DNA from: a virus
Virus record (IMG/VR): IMGVR_UViG_3300020411_000368
Location: 1-33,126 of that record
Strand: one strand, 5' to 3'
Length of the DNA: 33,126 nucleotides
The notes under the pieces were generated by a model, which saw only the letters and a program-made list of their open reading frames with translations, ran no database searches and was not told the DNA's origin. The first letter of the stretch is position 1; each line of letters starts with the position of its first letter. The position numbers and the translations under genes were made by a program. Below are positions 1 through 6,987 of this stretch, piece after piece.

Positions 1-962
1 CTTCTTATACAGTCAACTATGGCAGATCGAGACCAGGACCTTCTTATACAGTCAACTATAGTGTAAACTATGGTAGAGTATATTATGGTCAATATAGTAG
101 ATCGTTTGGTAGAGTATATTATGGCCAATATAGTAGATCATTTGGTAGAGTATATACTGGATCCTATGGTAGATCGTTTACTAGAGTATATACTGGATCC
201 TATGGTAGATCATTCGCTAGACAGTTTACAAGACAAACTGGTGGTCCTAACTATGCAGTAAATTATACTAGAATAAATCCTGGTCCTAACTATGCAAGAA
301 GTTTTACTAGAATAAATCCAGGACCTAACTATAGTAGATCATTCGCTAGACAAAATCCTGGTCCACAATATACAGTTCAATATACAAGAACCGTTGGTGG
401 TCCACAATATACTGTTCAATATCAAAGAGAATATGAAGGTCAATATGCTAGACAATTTGGTAGAATATATTCCGCTGCATATGGTAGACAATTTGCAAGA
501 GAGTATGAAGGATTATATGCTAGACAATTTAATAGAGTATATTCTATTCAATATACTATACAATACGCAAGAGAATATCAAGGGCAATATACTGTTCAAT
601 ATTTAAGAATATATTCTGTCCAATATCAAAGAACAAGACCTGGACCTAATTATTCAGATGGTCAATACCAAAGAACTACGCCAGGTCCACAATACACTGG
701 TAATTATCAGAGAGCAACTCCTGGACCAGGTTACACTGATGGACAATATCAGAGAACAACACCAGGACCTCAGTATACAGGTAATTATCAAAGAGCGACT
801 CCAGGACCTAATTACTCAGATGGACAATATCAAAGAGCTACTCCTGGACCTCAATACACTGTTCAATATAGTAACCAATTCACAGGTCAATATACTGGCG
901 CGACAGTGACTGATACACCATCTCTAAATAGCACAAAGAAATTGTGGCTTAGAGTTGCATAA
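1..962 (+). CDS. Tyr/Arg/Gln/Gly/Pro-rich repeat structural protein (5' end outside window)
   Basis: The reading frame is open from the left edge (codons begin at positions divisible by 3) to TAA at 960-962, giving about 319 residues; the start lies upstream. The protein is almost entirely repeats rich in Y, R, Q, G, P, S and T, with no lysine until the last ten residues. First come four 12-residue units (GRVYYGQYSRSF type). A middle zone of QYxR/EYEGQYARQF units follows, then alternating 14- and 13-residue PGP units (PGPNYSDGQYQRTT, PGPQYTGNYQRAT). The C-terminus KKLWLRVA resembles the short hydrophobic ends of phage virion proteins. No signal peptide or membrane segment is visible in this part. 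Its position before fibre genes suggests a virion adhesin or fibre, but no known family is recognised. That it is coding is nearly certain; the function is inferred. Confidence 0.75.
   Translation, partial: SYTVNYGRSRPGPSYTVNYSVNYGRVYYGQYSRSFGRVYYGQYSRSFGRVYTGSYGRSFTRVYTGSYGRSFARQFTRQTGGPNYAVNYTRINPGPNYARSFTRINPGPNYSRSFARQNPGPQYTVQYTRTVGGPQYTVQYQREYEGQYARQFGRIYSAAYGRQFAREYEGLYARQFNRVYSIQYTIQYAREYQGQYTVQYLRIYSVQYQRTRPGPNYSDGQYQRTTPGPQYTGNYQRATPGPGYTDGQYQRTTPGPQYTGNYQRATPGPNYSDGQYQRATPGPQYTVQYSNQFTGQYTGATVTDTPSLNSTKKLWLRVA
72..215 (+). repeat. Four in-frame 36-nt tandem repeats
   Basis: Units lie at 72-107, 108-143, 144-179 and 180-215. Each encodes 12 residues: GRVYYGQYSRSF twice, then GRVYTGSYGRSF and TRVYTGSYGRSF. 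Units 1 and 2 differ at few bases, as do 3 and 4, which points to recent pairwise duplication. The period is a multiple of three, so the frame is kept. Confidence 0.9.
639..881 (+). repeat. Three 81-nt (27-residue) PGP super-repeats
   Basis: Units begin at 639, 720 and 801. Each joins a 14-residue block (PGPxYxDGQYQRxT) to a 13-residue block (PGPQYTGNYQRAT); the last half-unit diverges to PGPQYTVQYS. They are in frame within the repeat protein. Confidence 0.85.
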
Positions 963-968
963 TAAATA
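961..968 (+). promoter_or_regulatory. Possible late promoter (AATAAATA)
   Basis: AATAAATA overlaps the stop of the repeat protein, 50 bases before the next start. It is one mismatch from the T4 late-promoter box TATAAATA. An AT-rich context makes chance occurrence likely. Confidence 0.3.
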
Positions 969-1018
969 AAAATAAGTTATAATAACTTTAACTTAGGAAT
1001 ATATCATGGAGTTATATT

Positions 1019-1432
1019 ATGGCCAGATTCAAAAAGGCACTTTGGGAAGATCCCGAAAATAAACAACGCATAAAGGCTAGAGAGATTACAGAAGATGGTA
1101 GTCGTGATATCGTTATAGATAGAGACGACACTGAAAACTTTAATGCAGTAATTGCAGAATTTCCAGAAGATGTAATTGATAAAGCTACCGAAGAAGATAT
1201 CGCAAGATATCGTCAAGAAAGATCCATAAAAGAACAACAACAAAAAGAAGCTGACATTAGGCAATTTCAAGAGTCTTTGTTTAATGAGAAGATTGAAATA
1301 TTTAAAATAGATGAAGTAGCTAAATGTGAAGATAAGCTTCTTAAAAGAAGAATAAGAAAAGCTAATACCTTTGCAGAGCTATATGCTTATACTGCAGCTC
1401 TTATTGTTCATGGTGATTTAAAAGATGACTAA
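1019..1432 (+). CDS. Small charged protein of unknown function
   Basis: This 137-residue protein is not recognised. The ATG at 1019 has a GGAG Shine-Dalgarno sequence at 1008-1011, which supports this start. It is highly charged and appears mostly helical. The N-terminus (MARFKKALWEDPENKQR) is followed by an acidic middle, a Q/E/K-rich helix at about residues 67-85, and a basic KRRIRKA segment near residue 110. The C-terminus ends GDLKDD and overlaps the glycosyltransferase start by 8 bases, so the two are probably translated together. Lying between a repetitive structural protein and modification-type enzymes, it could be an assembly factor or small virion protein. That is inference from position only. 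Confidence 0.75.
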   Translation: MARFKKALWEDPENKQRIKAREITEDGSRDIVIDRDDTENFNAVIAEFPEDVIDKATEEDIARYRQERSIKEQQQKEADIRQFQESLFNEKIEIFKIDEVAKCEDKLLKRRIRKANTFAELYAYTAALIVHGDLKDD

Positions 1433-2198
1433 AGGTATTGTAATTGTAGCTTCTGTTAAAGAAGTATTTAAAAGGCTAGCTTTAAATTTAGTTGATTCAT
1501 TAGATGATTACGCTCCAGATATTCCTATATTTGTATCAACTATACCTGAATGGGCTGATGAATTTAAAGACTATGATAATGTAGTTGAAATAAGATCTGA
1601 TGGACCTAATAATATAAGAAATAAATTATGGGCTTTACAGCATTCACCTTTTGATATATCTTGTTATATGGATGCTGATATGGAAGCTAAATCAGAAAGA
1701 GTTAATGAAGTATTTGATTTATTAGATGATGATCATGATTTTGCTTTTACTAACATATATGCACAGACTGGTGCTTCTACAATGCTCTATCAAGAAGATT
1801 ATGAAAAGGATCCTGAATGGAGAGACAATGATGGTGTTAGACATTTAAGGCATCATGGTGGATTCTTTCTTTGGAATAAAAATAGACCCAATGCAGCATT
1901 GGCTGCTAAACGATGGTGGGAGCTTTGGCAAGAGATAAATGAAAATGATGAATGGTGGGATAATCATCCAGAGTTCTATAGAGGTAATCAAAGTTGGGAT
2001 CAATTTTCTTGGTGGTGGTTATGCAATAAAGATATTCCAGATTTAAAAATTCAAGAAATAGAAAATGACACTTATTATCAATATCAATGGAATTGGTGTC
2101 CTGGAATACCTAGGTGGCATACAGATCCTGTTCCAGAAGATTTCGAAATTATATTATATCATTATCCAGCTCATCAGATAAAACAAAAAATGGAATAA
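1425..2198 (+). CDS. Glycosyltransferase-like protein (GT-A fold)
   Basis: This 257-residue protein starts with a strand-type segment (KGIVIVASV). It carries a DxD motif in CYMDADME (D83, D85), preceded by the pattern K67-LWAL...SPFD. That arrangement is typical of GT-A nucleotide-sugar transferases, where DxD binds the metal and sugar nucleotide. A later segment GGFFLWNKN and a very Trp-rich region (residues about 163-230) follow. It has no signal peptide or membrane segment, so it should act in the host cytoplasm. It overlaps the upstream gene by 8 bases and is followed 2 bases later by an oxygenase-like gene. Such transferases in phage fibre regions may modify virion proteins or host surface glycans; donor and acceptor are unknown. 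Confidence 0.75.
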   Translation: MTKGIVIVASVKEVFKRLALNLVDSLDDYAPDIPIFVSTIPEWADEFKDYDNVVEIRSDGPNNIRNKLWALQHSPFDISCYMDADMEAKSERVNEVFDLLDDDHDFAFTNIYAQTGASTMLYQEDYEKDPEWRDNDGVRHLRHHGGFFLWNKNRPNAALAAKRWWELWQEINENDEWWDNHPEFYRGNQSWDQFSWWWLCNKDIPDLKIQEIENDTYYQYQWNWCPGIPRWHTDPVPEDFEIILYHYPAHQIKQKME

Positions 2199-2200
2199 TT

Positions 2201-3013
2201 ATGAGAATGACAGAAATAAAAATACGTAATAAAGGTTTTATAAAACTTTTAGATGAATTACGTATTGCTGCTGAAGATTGGATAAAAGAAGGTGATAAAA
2301 GAAGAAAATTAGATGCGATGCTGAAAAAGCATTTAGAGAAACAAAACCCCTACCAAAGAGAAGAAGCTAATAAAGGAAGAAATGATGGTCCTGGTGAAGC
2401 ATTCGCAGGTTATGATATTCATAAGAAATATGAAAAAGATGATCCATGTCATATAGACATTTATAATTGGATGGTAGAAGAAACTAAAAAACATGGGCTC
2501 AGAGCGGAATTAACAAACGGGTTCCCATCTTTTGAAAATATGGTATCATATATTAATATCACTCAAGAACCATATTATGATGGTAGTTTAGATGTTATTA
2601 AAGATATATCCTATAAATATTTAGGAGGAAACTCATTAGCATTAGCTGCATTCTATCCACCTGGCGGATATATAGGATGGCATAATAATAGTAATGCACC
2701 TGGTTATAATATATTATTGCATTATAATTGGGGTGGCGAAGGTAATTTTTATACAGTAGAAGATGGTAAAAGAATAGCTTATCCAGATAGACCTAATGAA
2801 TGGGTTGGACGAGCAGGTGACTTTGTTGGCTTTAAAGATACTAAAAATCCAAGAGGAAATGACAAAGAAAATATTAGACATGTAGATAAAGAAGAAGACT
2901 TATCTTGGCATGCTGCACACACACCTGATACTTGGAGATTCACACTTTCTACTATTATAAATGATGAATATCTACGTGAAGATGTAATTGATGAAATAGA
3001 ATCTGAATGCTAA
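2201..3013 (+). CDS. 2OG-Fe(II) oxygenase-like double-stranded beta-helix protein
   Basis: The start at 2201 was chosen over an in-frame ATG at 2114. The longer form would overlap the glycosyltransferase by 85 bases and add an unlikely Ser/Arg-rich leader. The protein has 270 residues. A helical N-terminus is followed by a region resembling prolyl-hydroxylase-type 2OG-Fe(II) oxygenases: AFYPPGGYIGWHNNSNAPG with H161, then a glycine turn near 178-181, AGDFVGF near 205-211, and WHAAHTPDTWRFTLS with H237/H240 and R246. The H...H...R pattern fits iron and 2-oxoglutarate binding. However, the usual HxD acid is Asn163 (HNN), so activity is uncertain. Similar PPGGYIGWH sequences are familiar to me from marine T4-like phages. 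It forms a likely operon with the glycosyltransferase. Confidence 0.65.
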   Translation: MRMTEIKIRNKGFIKLLDELRIAAEDWIKEGDKRRKLDAMLKKHLEKQNPYQREEANKGRNDGPGEAFAGYDIHKKYEKDDPCHIDIYNWMVEETKKHGLRAELTNGFPSFENMVSYINITQEPYYDGSLDVIKDISYKYLGGNSLALAAFYPPGGYIGWHNNSNAPGYNILLHYNWGGEGNFYTVEDGKRIAYPDRPNEWVGRAGDFVGFKDTKNPRGNDKENIRHVDKEEDLSWHAAHTPDTWRFTLSTIINDEYLREDVIDEIESEC

Positions 3014-3056: not shown

Positions 3057-3389
3057 ATGGCAATCAAAGCTAATCTTACAATAGACAAAGGAACAGATTA
3101 TTCAATAGCGGTAAACGTGACGCAATCAAATGGCGCTGTTTACGTTATAGATGATGGATCTACATGTTCTATGAAGATGAGAAAACACTTCTCATCTAAC
3201 ACGGCTTATACACTATCGGCACAAGTTAGTGATCGTACTACCGGTGAAATAACACTATCTGCCAATAACTCCGTTACAGGTGCTATCCCACCTGGAAGAT
3301 ACTCCTATGATGTTGAACTTAATCAAGGTGCTAATGTGACGAGAGTATTACAAGGCACGGTAACTGTTACACCGGAGTATTCATACTAA
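3057..3389 (+). CDS. Small beta-rich virion protein (baseplate/fibre-attachment type)
   Basis: This 110-residue protein begins MAIKANLTIDKGTDYSI, with an upstream GAGG at 3047-3050. The alternation of short strands and the phrase IPPGRYSYDVEL resemble the N-terminal immunoglobulin-like domain of phage upper-baseplate proteins (BppU type), common in marine phage structural clusters. It has no cysteine-rich or membrane segment; its single cysteine lies in GSTCSMKMRK. Its stop overlaps the next start (TAATG). It heads a run of TAATG-coupled structural genes, so a role in attaching fibres to the baseplate is plausible but inferred. Confidence 0.7.
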   Translation: MAIKANLTIDKGTDYSIAVNVTQSNGAVYVIDDGSTCSMKMRKHFSSNTAYTLSAQVSDRTTGEITLSANNSVTGAIPPGRYSYDVELNQGANVTRVLQGTVTVTPEYSY

Positions 3390-3613
3390 TGGCCAATACA
3401 AGTATTAAAGCAACTATACAATCAACCCAAAACCCAGTTGTTACAAAAATAATTAAAAACCAAACCACTCTTGGTGATGTTACTGGTATTAATGTTAATT
3501 ATGATGATGTAGCAAATGGTCACGTATTAGCTTATAATCAATCGTCAAATACCTTTGCACCTATATCTGTAGCTTCAGCTCGTGGAGCAATTGATGGCGG
3601 TGAGGTAACCTAA
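3389..3613 (+). CDS. Small structural protein ending GAIDGGEVT
   Basis: This 74-residue protein, rich in T, N, V and S, is coupled by TAATG overlaps on both sides. The middle (NVNYDDVANGHVLAYNQSSNTFAP) resembles the short linker segments found in fibre proteins of marine myoviruses. The C-terminal IDGGEVT is close to the IDGGTY and LDGGTY endings of two fibre proteins downstream, suggesting a shared structural tail. No enzyme motif is seen. It is likely a virion component or a detached fibre module; specific function unknown. Confidence 0.65.
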   Translation: MANTSIKATIQSTQNPVVTKIIKNQTTLGDVTGINVNYDDVANGHVLAYNQSSNTFAPISVASARGAIDGGEVT

Positions 3614-6600
3614 TGGCTGATTTAATTCAAATAAAACGATCGCAAACCGTTAATGCGTTTGCTAATATTGTTTTCGGTGAATTAGCATTTACAACTAATG
3701 GTGATATACTATTTGTTGGTGATAGCACTAATGCAGTATCAGTTCCTGTAGGTGGTAGAAGAACACCAGGAACGTTATCAGCAAACCAAGCTATTGTCGT
3801 TAACTCAACATCTTATGTAGATAATTTAAAATCAGTAGCTCTTACTATTGATGGTACAGCTACTGTTAATAATTTAGTTATATCTACTTCTGCTACATAT
3901 CCTAATCAATCTATTACAGAAGCAGCATTTCAAGGATTTAAAAAGACAGTTACAGTATCTGGTGGTAAGTTTTTAATAGATGGTGGATCCCAACAAGTAA
4001 TTAGATTGCTGCCTGGAATTAAATATTACTTCGATCAATCAGATTCAACAAACGCAACACATCCTATTAAGTTTAGTGAGACAAGCGATGGTACTCATAA
4101 CTCAGGATCAGAATTTACAACAGGAGTTACTTCATCAGGAACTCCAGGTTCAGCTGGTGCTTATACAGTAGTTCAATTAGAAGCAGACGCACCTACTAGA
4201 TTATTCTATTATTGTGGTGCACATTCAGGTATGGGCTCTACAGTAAGAGTTCATGAACCTCAAATTATAGCTTCTAATTCAACTGTTACTACATTTACAG
4301 GAACATTGCACGCTAATGATATTTCTATATCAAACAATTTAACAGTAAATGGAGATTTAATATTAAGAGGATCTAGTATACAATTAGGTGATGGTGGTGA
4401 TGTAATATCATTAGGTGCTACAGTTAATACTAGTATCATACCATCAGATAATGTATCTTATGATTTAGGATCCTCAGCAAAACAATATAGACAAGTATAC
4501 GCTAATCAAATGACAGTGTCAACCGATCCATCGAGCGCAATGGAAGTAGCTACAAAACAATATGTAGATAATATTGAAGCTCAGTTGGGTGGTAATAGTA
4601 TAGTCATAGGACCACCTACAGATGGTGCTTATGCTAATGGTAAAGGATCTGGCGCAGAAGGTGCAACAGTAGACTTAGCTAATACTACAAAGATATCAGA
4701 TTCTGTTGACATTTTAAATGAGGTGATGTATAATATATATCAAAATACATACGTTAGAGATGTAACAGTAACTTGCACATCTGGTAATACAGGCGGAGCT
4801 CCATTAACTGCTACACTAACATTAGACGTAACAGGTAATGCATCTCACTTTGATATTAATTGGGGTGATGGTAATTGGTCAAATAATACTACTGATAGTA
4901 CACCAAGCCATACATATTCTAATAATGCATCATCGCCTTTTGATGTTACAGTGACAGCTAAGAATACTTCTGCTAAAGGCTCAGGTAATTCAGCATCACA
5001 TTCTGTTACAGATTTAATTACATTGTATACATCAGATCCAAATGCAGACTTTAACATATATAATGTCTCATCTGGTGGTACAGTAATAACTGAGGCAAAC
5101 ATAAATGAAACAATATATGTCGACAATAATACAACGAACGCGAATGACGTCACTGCGACTTTCTTTATTAATTGGGGCGATTCTTCTTCTGACTCTATCT
5201 CCAACACTAGCGTCGATGGTGGTACACAAGGATCAAGAAAATCGCACGTATACTCATCTGGAACCGGAACCGGGTCAAATACAATCACCCTTTCCATTAA
5301 TACTCACTCCACAGCAGATCCGTCAGCATTGCCGGATAGTGCATCCAAGACCATCAAAATCTTCAATACCTCCATTGCAGCACCGGAAGGATTGTCGGGA
5401 AAAACACTTGGACTTTCTTCGTCATCTGTTGGAACCAACCCCAGACTGGCCTCCGGCTTCATTAACAATACATCAGAGGGTTCTTTTAGCGCAGATGATA
5501 CAATCAGTTATAGATACACAACTAGTGGAGCAATTGCAACAACTGGAGAAGCAAATTCACAAATCGCATATGATGCCGGCTCAGGCACGGTCTCTGCTAT
5601 CGTAGATGGATCAGTAGATGGAACTATTACTTTTAATTCTTCTGATAATACTGGCACCAATAATTCACTCCAAGTCGTAGATGAATTAGACTTCTATAAT
5701 TTCGATGCTTCTGGTGATTCAGTATCAGCAGCTAACAGAATACATGCACCTGGTTTATATTCTGGATTTAGAAGTAGAATATCAAAATCAAGTTTAGGTA
5801 CTGGCGCACATACTTATAAGTTAAGTCATTCAAGTCAAGGCAATACTAATGTCATGGAGTTTGTTCATGATAATTTAACAGGTGCACCAGTTATTAATTT
5901 CAGTGGGACTTCTGTAAGTCAAAACTCTGCAGGTACATTGGCTTACGTATCTGGAGTCCCTTATTATACAAATGATGCATCAATAAATGTATCAGGAGTA
6001 TTGGTTTCTAATGTAGCTGGACAAACATATAGAAACGACACATCACCCTTTACTATTTCATCAGGTACAAATGTAGAAGGGGACAATGGTTCAGCATTCA
6101 ATACACAAACTAAAGCTTATAGTATTTTACCAAGTGCGACATTGAATGCTGGATATCCTATAGCAAATACAGGAATGTCAGCTAACGTAACAATAGATGA
6201 TTTCCAATTAAGTGTTAATGGTGGCGGTAGACGTGTAGAAGGATTTGCCATGATGATGAGAAACGTCAATGGTAATGGATCTACTATACAATATGCTAAT
6301 ACTAAAATAGCTACTTATAATGGTAATTCATCAGGTGTTAGAGAGGATGCTATTCCTGTGTCTGATAGTTTAGGAGCAGGACATGATACAGACGGTAAAA
6401 GATTATCTAACTTCTCATCTACCAATGCAACTCCAACGTTTGCGAATAATGTTGATTACTACGCTAGTAATGCTTGGAGTGGTGCAGTTACTGTGGCTGG
6501 CACGGATGAAGCAATTGTTAGATATGGAACATTAGCACATAATGAAAATAATTATTCCAGTGGTTACTTACCAGCTGGACCAAATTTAAGCACAGGTAGA

Positions 6601-6987
6601 TCTGGAGTTCAATACTTTAGATTTGCATTTAAAAGATCAACAATGTCTAACTTTGATGTTAGATTAACAGGTAACGTAGCATCATTCCATGTTGCTGCAC
6701 CTGGAACAGATATAGATGATACATCAGATTCAAATGGTTGGATTGATTGTTCATCTACTTATGCTGGATCCGGAACGCCAGGAGCTAATACTACAGCTGG
6801 TGGTAATGGTTCTGATGGATGTGCATTTACATCCGGTGATAGGATCCAAGCAAATACGAATATAAGTAATAGTGTCTTTACAATGACACTAGGTGATCAG
6901 AATGGATCTTCTGCTTATAATAACCAAATACTTATTAGTATAGGTTTGCATAGTGGACAAAGTATAACTAGGTTGGAGATAGAATAA
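3613..6987 (+). CDS. Long tail-fibre protein with cupredoxin-like and PKD domains
   Basis: This 1124-residue modular fibre begins with a docking-like segment (LIQIKRS...GELAFTTNGDILFVG, residues 4-40) shared with two downstream fibres. Residues about 105-215 resemble cupredoxins, with H150 (THPIKF), C201, H204 and M207 (CGAHSGM) matching a type-1 copper ligand set. Residues about 385-465 and 470-575 look like PKD domains, each with an INWGD motif (W417 and W521) and a later HTY/HVY strand. The rest is Ser/Thr/Asn/Gly-rich beta structure, ending in a Cys-containing, Gly-rich segment (WIDCSSTY, residue about 1042 on) and SITRLEIE. There is a TAATG overlap on each side. It is most likely a receptor-binding or decoration fibre. 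Codon use changes sharply around 5105-5470 (second PKD domain). Confidence 0.85.
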   Translation: MADLIQIKRSQTVNAFANIVFGELAFTTNGDILFVGDSTNAVSVPVGGRRTPGTLSANQAIVVNSTSYVDNLKSVALTIDGTATVNNLVISTSATYPNQSITEAAFQGFKKTVTVSGGKFLIDGGSQQVIRLLPGIKYYFDQSDSTNATHPIKFSETSDGTHNSGSEFTTGVTSSGTPGSAGAYTVVQLEADAPTRLFYYCGAHSGMGSTVRVHEPQIIASNSTVTTFTGTLHANDISISNNLTVNGDLILRGSSIQLGDGGDVISLGATVNTSIIPSDNVSYDLGSSAKQYRQVYANQMTVSTDPSSAMEVATKQYVDNIEAQLGGNSIVIGPPTDGAYANGKGSGAEGATVDLANTTKISDSVDILNEVMYNIYQNTYVRDVTVTCTSGNTGGAPLTATLTLDVTGNASHFDINWGDGNWSNNTTDSTPSHTYSNNASSPFDVTVTAKNTSAKGSGNSASHSVTDLITLYTSDPNADFNIYNVSSGGTVITEANINETIYVDNNTTNANDVTATFFINWGDSSSDSISNTSVDGGTQGSRKSHVYSSGTGTGSNTITLSINTHSTADPSALPDSASKTIKIFNTSIAAPEGLSGKTLGLSSSSVGTNPRLASGFINNTSEGSFSADDTISYRYTTSGAIATTGEANSQIAYDAGSGTVSAIVDGSVDGTITFNSSDNTGTNNSLQVVDELDFYNFDASGDSVSAANRIHAPGLYSGFRSRISKSSLGTGAHTYKLSHSSQGNTNVMEFVHDNLTGAPVINFSGTSVSQNSAGTLAYVSGVPYYTNDASINVSGVLVSNVAGQTYRNDTSPFTISSGTNVEGDNGSAFNTQTKAYSILPSATLNAGYPIANTGMSANVTIDDFQLSVNGGGRRVEGFAMMMRNVNGNGSTIQYANTKIATYNGNSSGVREDAIPVSDSLGAGHDTDGKRLSNFSSTNATPTFANNVDYYASNAWSGAVTVAGTDEAIVRYGTLAHNENNYSSGYLPAGPNLSTGRSGVQYFRFAFKRSTMSNFDVRLTGNVASFHVAAPGTDIDDTSDSNGWIDCSSTYAGSGTPGANTTAGGNGSDGCAFTSGDRIQANTNISNSVFTMTLGDQNGSSAYNNQILISIGLHSGQSITRLEIE

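Follow-up and report, generated by a model that had tools for sequence, protein, structure and literature searches.

A four-gene unit joining a repeat protein to a glycosyltransferase in the tail-fibre region of uncultured T4-like phages: a probable virion-protein modification cassette

Among the described systems in which a repeat protein is encoded with its own glycosyltransferases (GTs) are the serine-rich-repeat adhesin loci of bacteria, such as that of pneumococcal PsrP with GlyE and other GTs. In viruses, the collagen of mimivirus is modified by a lysyl hydroxylase together with collagen glycosyltransferases (PMC9546862), and the virion glycans of mycobacteriophages have been attributed to phage-encoded GTs (Freeman et al. 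2023, as cited in PMC12619734). Here we describe a four-gene cassette at the left end of a 33,126-base virus record of a T4-like myovirus (IMG/VR record IMGVR_UViG_3300020411_000368; this whole stretch is called the window), which encodes a repeat protein (REP), a small charged protein (chap), a GT and a protein resembling 2-oxoglutarate (2OG) oxygenases. We propose, with a probability that we put at roughly 0.6, that the unit serves uncultured T4-like water phages as a cassette dedicated to modifying their own fibre, with the GT attaching a sugar to Tyr or to Thr/Ser residues. All four genes lie on the plus strand and are followed by an LtfC-like gene and by fibre genes:

3-962, + strand: REP, C-terminal part, 319 amino acids (aa); its N-terminus is outside the window, cut by the window start
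1019-1432, + strand: chap, a charged small protein of 137 aa, linked to REP throughout
1425-2198, + strand: GT, 257 aa, predicted GT-A fold; overlaps chap by 8 nucleotides (nt); DxD motif at nt 1671-1679
2201-3013, + strand: 2OG-like protein, 270 aa, predicted double-stranded beta-helix (DSBH); H161-N162-N163 at nt 2681-2689, H237 at nt 2909-2911, R246 at nt 2936-2938
3057-3389, + strand: LtfC-like (L-shaped tail-fibre assembly) protein, phrog_3304 with E=3e-16; a neighbour, non-obligate

A preliminary description of this stretch had already pointed to a repeat protein, a GT and a 2OG-like protein, whose positions are borne out by our analysis. In the gene run claimed there, the gene directly after REP is chap, which went unmentioned, and not the GT. 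The four-gene observation is confirmed, and it is stronger than that description had it.

The linkage of these genes was followed in IMG/VR by scans started from the 2OG-like protein, the GT, the N-terminal region of REP and chap, the last with a profile made from a subset of closer chap sequences. Since several loci may share one contig, GT clusters and not loci are the fair count. Chap, GT and 2OG-like genes were found together in 244 loci, corresponding to 87 GT clusters at 90% identity, 42 at 70% and 14 at 50%, so that the near-obligatory linkage extends across divergent phages. Starting from REP, 63 of 76 loci had the complete set, and in the remaining 13 the sequence stops within the unit; no REP without the enzymes appeared wherever the sequence covers the unit. 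The chap-started set gave all four genes in 73 of 80 loci, with the remaining seven cut by contig ends, and the GT-started set in 73 of 79, its exceptions being three loci that start just before chap (L045, L071, L094), two that resemble loci L061 and L082, where other fibre genes part REP from chap (L062, L081), and one whose REP position is taken by a protein with weaker tetrads (L077). REP lies upstream in 78 of the 82 clusters with sequence, and the remaining four are accounted for by a contig or locus end, an overlong reading-frame call, intervening fibre genes and a weak repeat. The search for co-occurrence that the preliminary description had put forward as a check is therefore strongly positive from three different starting genes.

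The set is also kept when the locus is rearranged. The order is chap-2OG-GT in L077; in L100 and L124 the GT lies about 4 kb upstream; in L027 and L033 the GT and the 2OG-like gene are separated by 2 kb of inserted sequence, and in the related L032 a repeat gene comes immediately before the 2OG-like gene. In L043, a cupin-like gene of 134 aa that is absent from the window stands between chap and the GT (L043:5480-5884). The next gene, in contrast, is far less constant, given that an LtfC-like gene within 1.5 kb of the 2OG-like gene was found in only 39 of 82 clusters, and this combination of a set kept through rearrangements with a changing neighbour argues for functional linkage and not for frozen synteny. 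As side observations, the cupin-like protein of L043 weakly matches the models for aminosalicylate dioxygenase and oxalate decarboxylase, and a 254-aa protein directly after the 2OG-like gene of L124 (L124:10932-11693), with no NCBIfam match, looks glycosyltransferase-like by eye only.

The REP of the window is rich in Tyr (15.7%), Gly (11.6%), Arg (11.0%) and Pro (7.2%) and holds 10 copies of PGP against about 0.2 expected from its composition, in agreement with the Tyr/Pro/Gly/Arg-rich repeat with many PGP units noticed previously. Its strongest regularity is the occurrence of Tyr/Phe pairs four residues apart (43 versus 11.3 +/- 2.7 in shuffles), the PGP units are located in the longer spacers, with a Tyr-to-Tyr distance of 9, and the DNA-level repeat copies have spacings of 12, 36 and 81 nt. 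The repeat shared by the family is an aromatic tetrad, [Y/F]-x-[G/R]-x, or in its fuller form [Y/F]-[T/A/V/S]-[G/R]-[N/D/T...], with YTGN, FVGN and FAGN as the commonest versions and with Tyr (65%) and Phe (35%) interchanging at the aromatic position; the period is 4, not 3, and the Gly-X-Y tripeptide repeat is absent from REP. Among 160 non-redundant copies, lengths go from 118 aa (fragments included) to the 3347 aa of Phage C48C1, and L-[YW]-[VL]-R-x-A closes most of them, represented in the window by LWLRVA, while short complete REPs have in common an N-terminal region of repeated blocks similar to LKEMSDAEI. Two homologues serve as references:

L043:2176-5031: REP homologue, 952 aa, the closest relative of the window
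Phage C48C1, CDS0201: REP homologue, 3347 aa

PGP is present more than once per protein in only 11 of the 160 REPs, the PGP-rich ones being those of the window, L043, L122 and L177. Only Tyr, Thr and Gly are present in the tetrad regions of all 160, and the residues that may be missing there are Lys (142/160), Pro (70/160), Arg (19/160) and Asn (2/160). Phages with identical GTs carry REPs of unequal length (L115/L116, L249-L251 and L237/L240/L241/L255, with 1585 vs. 1639 aa and 1614, 1671 and 1676 aa), which suggests a rapid expansion and contraction of the repeat array. Searches of the PDB with REP gave no useful match.

The AlphaFold2 model of the GT, made from 45 sequences, has a predicted local distance difference test score (pLDDT) of 93, and Foldseek places it near UGGT, LARGE1, LgtC, xyloside xylosyltransferase, GlyE, glycogenin and BoGT6a (E from 4e-9 to 4e-7, template modeling (TM) score 0.5-0.6), all of them retaining GT-A enzymes, with GT24 and GT6 also among them. 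We are confident in the GT-A fold predicted by this model. The DxD motif, D83-A-D85, is intact in 87/87 clusters, and D83/D85, D192-Q193 and H246 show no variation across 40 GT clusters and set A3; by analogy, the DxD, the DQ of the second half and the C-terminal His may be read as GT8-type motifs. In a profile search of PDB sequences, the sole glycosyltransferase matched was glycogenin-1, weakly (E=0.02). There was no match above the cut-off in Pfam or NCBIfam, PF01501 (GT8) was not matched, and GT-A families other than GT8 match the GT as well. Glycogenin adds glucose to a tyrosine, the substrate of GlyE is a repeat adhesin, and likeness to both makes a hydroxyl acceptor on a repeat protein plausible, although this is not proof. 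The search of genome_contigs for cellular GT homologues gave only three contigs, all with the phage-type cassette.

The 2OG-like protein, with a model pLDDT of 83, is matched by Foldseek to double-stranded beta-helix proteins, including ACO2, AlkBH3, P4H and cupins, with E from 1e-4 and TM scores of about 0.3, and no oxygenase match was obtained in Pfam (18 members of set A2) or in NCBIfam (window protein). The former label of 2OG-oxygenase-like holds for the DSBH fold of the model, but not for the canonical HxD motif, because the metal site reads H161-x-N163...H237...R246, with the acidic ligand of the HxD/E...H triad replaced by Asn. HxN instead of HxD was found in 101/101 clusters, with the distal His conserved, and therefore a prolyl- or lysyl-hydroxylase activity is not to be assumed. 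Given that the first 2OG scan had been seeded with GYIGWHNN, HxN was rescored on the GT-started loci, where 50/50 clusters still had HxN, and an ascertainment artefact was rejected. Across 50 clusters, H161, N163, H237 and R246 are each 98-100% conserved; R246, nine residues past H237 and present in 98% of clusters, fits the Arg/Lys position some 9-10 residues after the distal His and is by analogy a putative 2OG ligand. AspH is active with two His and a water molecule replacing the carboxylate, and 2OG halogenases have a similar site (PMC13168262), by analogy with which activity of the HxN protein is possible. Beside the cassette members, stand-alone HxN genes (L016, L034, L035, L037, L038; L039-L042) immediately follow other virion-type genes, in contexts of two different kinds, and a 2OG-like paralogue of C48C1, CDS0046 (L281:4131-4805), adjoins a gene for a NifU-like Fe-S protein in the replication region, away from the fibre cassette.

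Chap has six residues invariant in 50 clusters (W9, L87, F88, K91, F95 and R113), and its designation as a fibre chaperone is a guess from its position and size.

In the mechanism that we propose, REP would form a long fibre of the tail or baseplate, with aromatic tetrads as its building blocks, and be carried in the virion, chap would probably assist its folding or present it to the enzymes, the GT would move a sugar from a nucleotide-sugar onto side-chain hydroxyls of the tetrads (Tyr, or Thr/Ser), and the HxN protein may introduce a second modification, either in the same fibre or in the attached sugar. Receptor binding, stiffness or shielding might be the purpose; the preliminary description had named receptor binding and antigenicity as properties that may change. 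Given that the GT and the 2OG-like protein are retained throughout and that Tyr and Thr are always present, the common target, if it lies in the tetrads, would most simply be Tyr or Thr/Ser. Arg and Asn were rejected as universal targets because each one is absent from some REP tetrad regions, and N-x-S/T sequons were rejected as well because they are absent from some repeats. Regarding the sugar supply, C48C1 encodes a nucleotide-sugar epimerase and a UDP-glucose-dehydrogenase-like gene, and among the large carriers a dehydrogenase domain was found in 12/22 and an epimerase domain in 16/22, mostly as neighbours; by tblastn, a different search method from this domain count, the C48C1 dehydrogenase matches 75 of 50,697 phage records. 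A bolder proposal sees in the HxN proteins a new and active class of 2OG enzyme that acts on the Tyr/Thr tetrads of the fibre or on their sugars, by oxidation or in another way, in partnership with a glycogenin-like tyrosine GT. This is distinctly doubtful; if true, it would mean a virion fibre with a modification chemistry undescribed in viruses.

The preliminary description had gone further, suggesting that the 2OG enzyme hydroxylates Pro in PGP (or Lys) and that the GT then glycosylates the hydroxylated residue, as in collagen. We consider this scheme very improbable. It takes support from the PGP-rich REPs of the window and its three companions and from the layout of the enzyme pair, which resembles mimivirus collagen modification, yet both enzymes are retained where multiple PGP, Pro or Lys are missing from the repeats, the Gly-X-Y repeat is absent, and the metal site is HxN throughout. 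As a general mechanism it fails, and prolyl/lysyl hydroxylation as the shared chemistry was rejected on the repeat composition of the 160 REPs; thus, the earlier interpretation is partly supported, in its linkage and not in its collagen-type chemistry. A T4-type portal is present in 18/19 large carriers tested, so shared descent explains part of the linkage. This portal also speaks for a different idea, namely that the GT and the 2OG-like protein act on something other than REP, be it a different fibre, a glycan of the host surface or a small molecule, and that the four genes stay together as a co-inherited late tail operon. Fibre genes standing between REP and chap in L061, L072, L082, L095 and L097, and the GT adjoining a Gly-rich protein in L100 and L124, agree with this idea, which is nevertheless unlikely, though to be taken seriously, because the whole set survives in rearranged loci while the flanking gene is kept in only 39 of 82 clusters, and because the REP-started scans found no REP without the enzymes wherever the sequence covers the unit.

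In a further reading, also rather unlikely, the DSBH of the 2OG-like protein would serve binding or assembly without catalysis, leaving the GT as the sole modifier of REP. The replacement of the acidic iron ligand by Asn in all clusters, and Foldseek matches that mix oxygenases with non-enzymatic cupins at low TM scores, speak in favor of such a role; the nearly complete conservation of the two His, the Asn and the Arg is unexpected for a dead site, and AspH works with two His and water. Returning to the self-modification cassette, several facts weigh against it besides the common portal: the 2OG-like protein, having no carboxylate ligand, could be non-catalytic; its relatives occur without REP, chap or GT in L016, L034, L035 and L037-L042; C48C1 has 2OG-like paralogues outside the cassette; and the interchange of Tyr and Phe (65:35) points to a structural role of the aromatic residue, for which reason Thr/Ser are kept open as acceptors. 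The sugar-nucleotide genes appear confined to one clade, and, with search methods that differ, the sugar supply counts as supporting evidence only.

The cassette is surrounded by genes for the tail fibres, neck and tail of T4-like phages, in line with the link to fibre genes proposed at the outset. To its right, the window has a T4-like gene order of neck proteins, sheath stabiliser, terminase, sheath, portal, scaffold and helicase. Its terminase is about 58% identical to cyanophage terminases, and a cyanophage identity was rejected since a psbA-type gene is absent (14 records checked). The neighbouring fibre-like protein of 1124 aa at 3613-6987 is strongly conserved in L043 (phmmer E=0), and its C-terminal half matches phrog_8578 (unknown function).

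Phage C48C1, the host of which is not stated in its record, is the sole cassette carrier in the 50,697 phage records. Where they were scanned against Pfam and NCBIfam, the four families had no match above the cut-off, save that the L043 repeat matched a DUF through low-complexity sequence; of the four, the GT alone has a PHROGs match, a weak one to phrog_1903 (unknown function), and the cassette is essentially absent from the PDB. A description of the cassette was not found in the open-access papers searched, nor was the combination of REP and GT with an HxN DSBH protein, while virion glycans and repeat adhesins with their own GTs were already known. What emerges is a probable unit for the modification of virion proteins, widespread, tightly conserved and so far without annotation, whose carrier phages are almost missing from culture collections; four protein families are named at once, and a general question is raised about 2OG-fold proteins that keep Asn at the iron-binding Asp position. 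Should the fibre prove to be glycosylated, phage-made glycans would have to enter the models of host recognition for the carrier phages.

Compared with known systems, the GT resembles glycogenin and GT8-like retaining enzymes in its predicted GT-A fold, DxD, DQ and C-terminal His, although GT8 membership is not established and GT24 and GT6 are also among its structural neighbours. The HxN protein shares with AspH-type 2OG oxygenases the two His without Asp/Glu and an Arg suited to 2OG binding (PMC13168262), but has Asn at the ligand position and no detectable sequence relation to them. The mycobacteriophages offer a parallel in their glycans on virion proteins, attributed to phage GTs; as far as the account cited in PMC12619734 goes, it is the capsid and tail-tube C-termini that are glycosylated there, with neither a repeat fibre nor a 2OG-like partner. 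Mimivirus likewise combines a virus-encoded 2OG-fold protein and a GT with a virus-encoded repeat protein, but the cassette belongs to an unrelated virus, lacks collagen repeats, has almost no Lys in its repeats and carries HxN, not HxD. Lastly, the serine-rich-repeat adhesin loci also have a long low-complexity repeat surface protein beside its own GTs, and the fold of GlyE is among the nearest to that of our GT; those proteins are Ser-rich and belong to the bacterial surface, whereas the cassette has aromatic tetrads, stands in a phage tail-fibre region and adds to the repeat a single GT together with a small protein and a protein of DSBH fold, with no accessory secretion genes seen. The genetic linkage of a repeat protein to its own GT, by which self-glycosylated adhesins are recognized, is found in the cassette as well.

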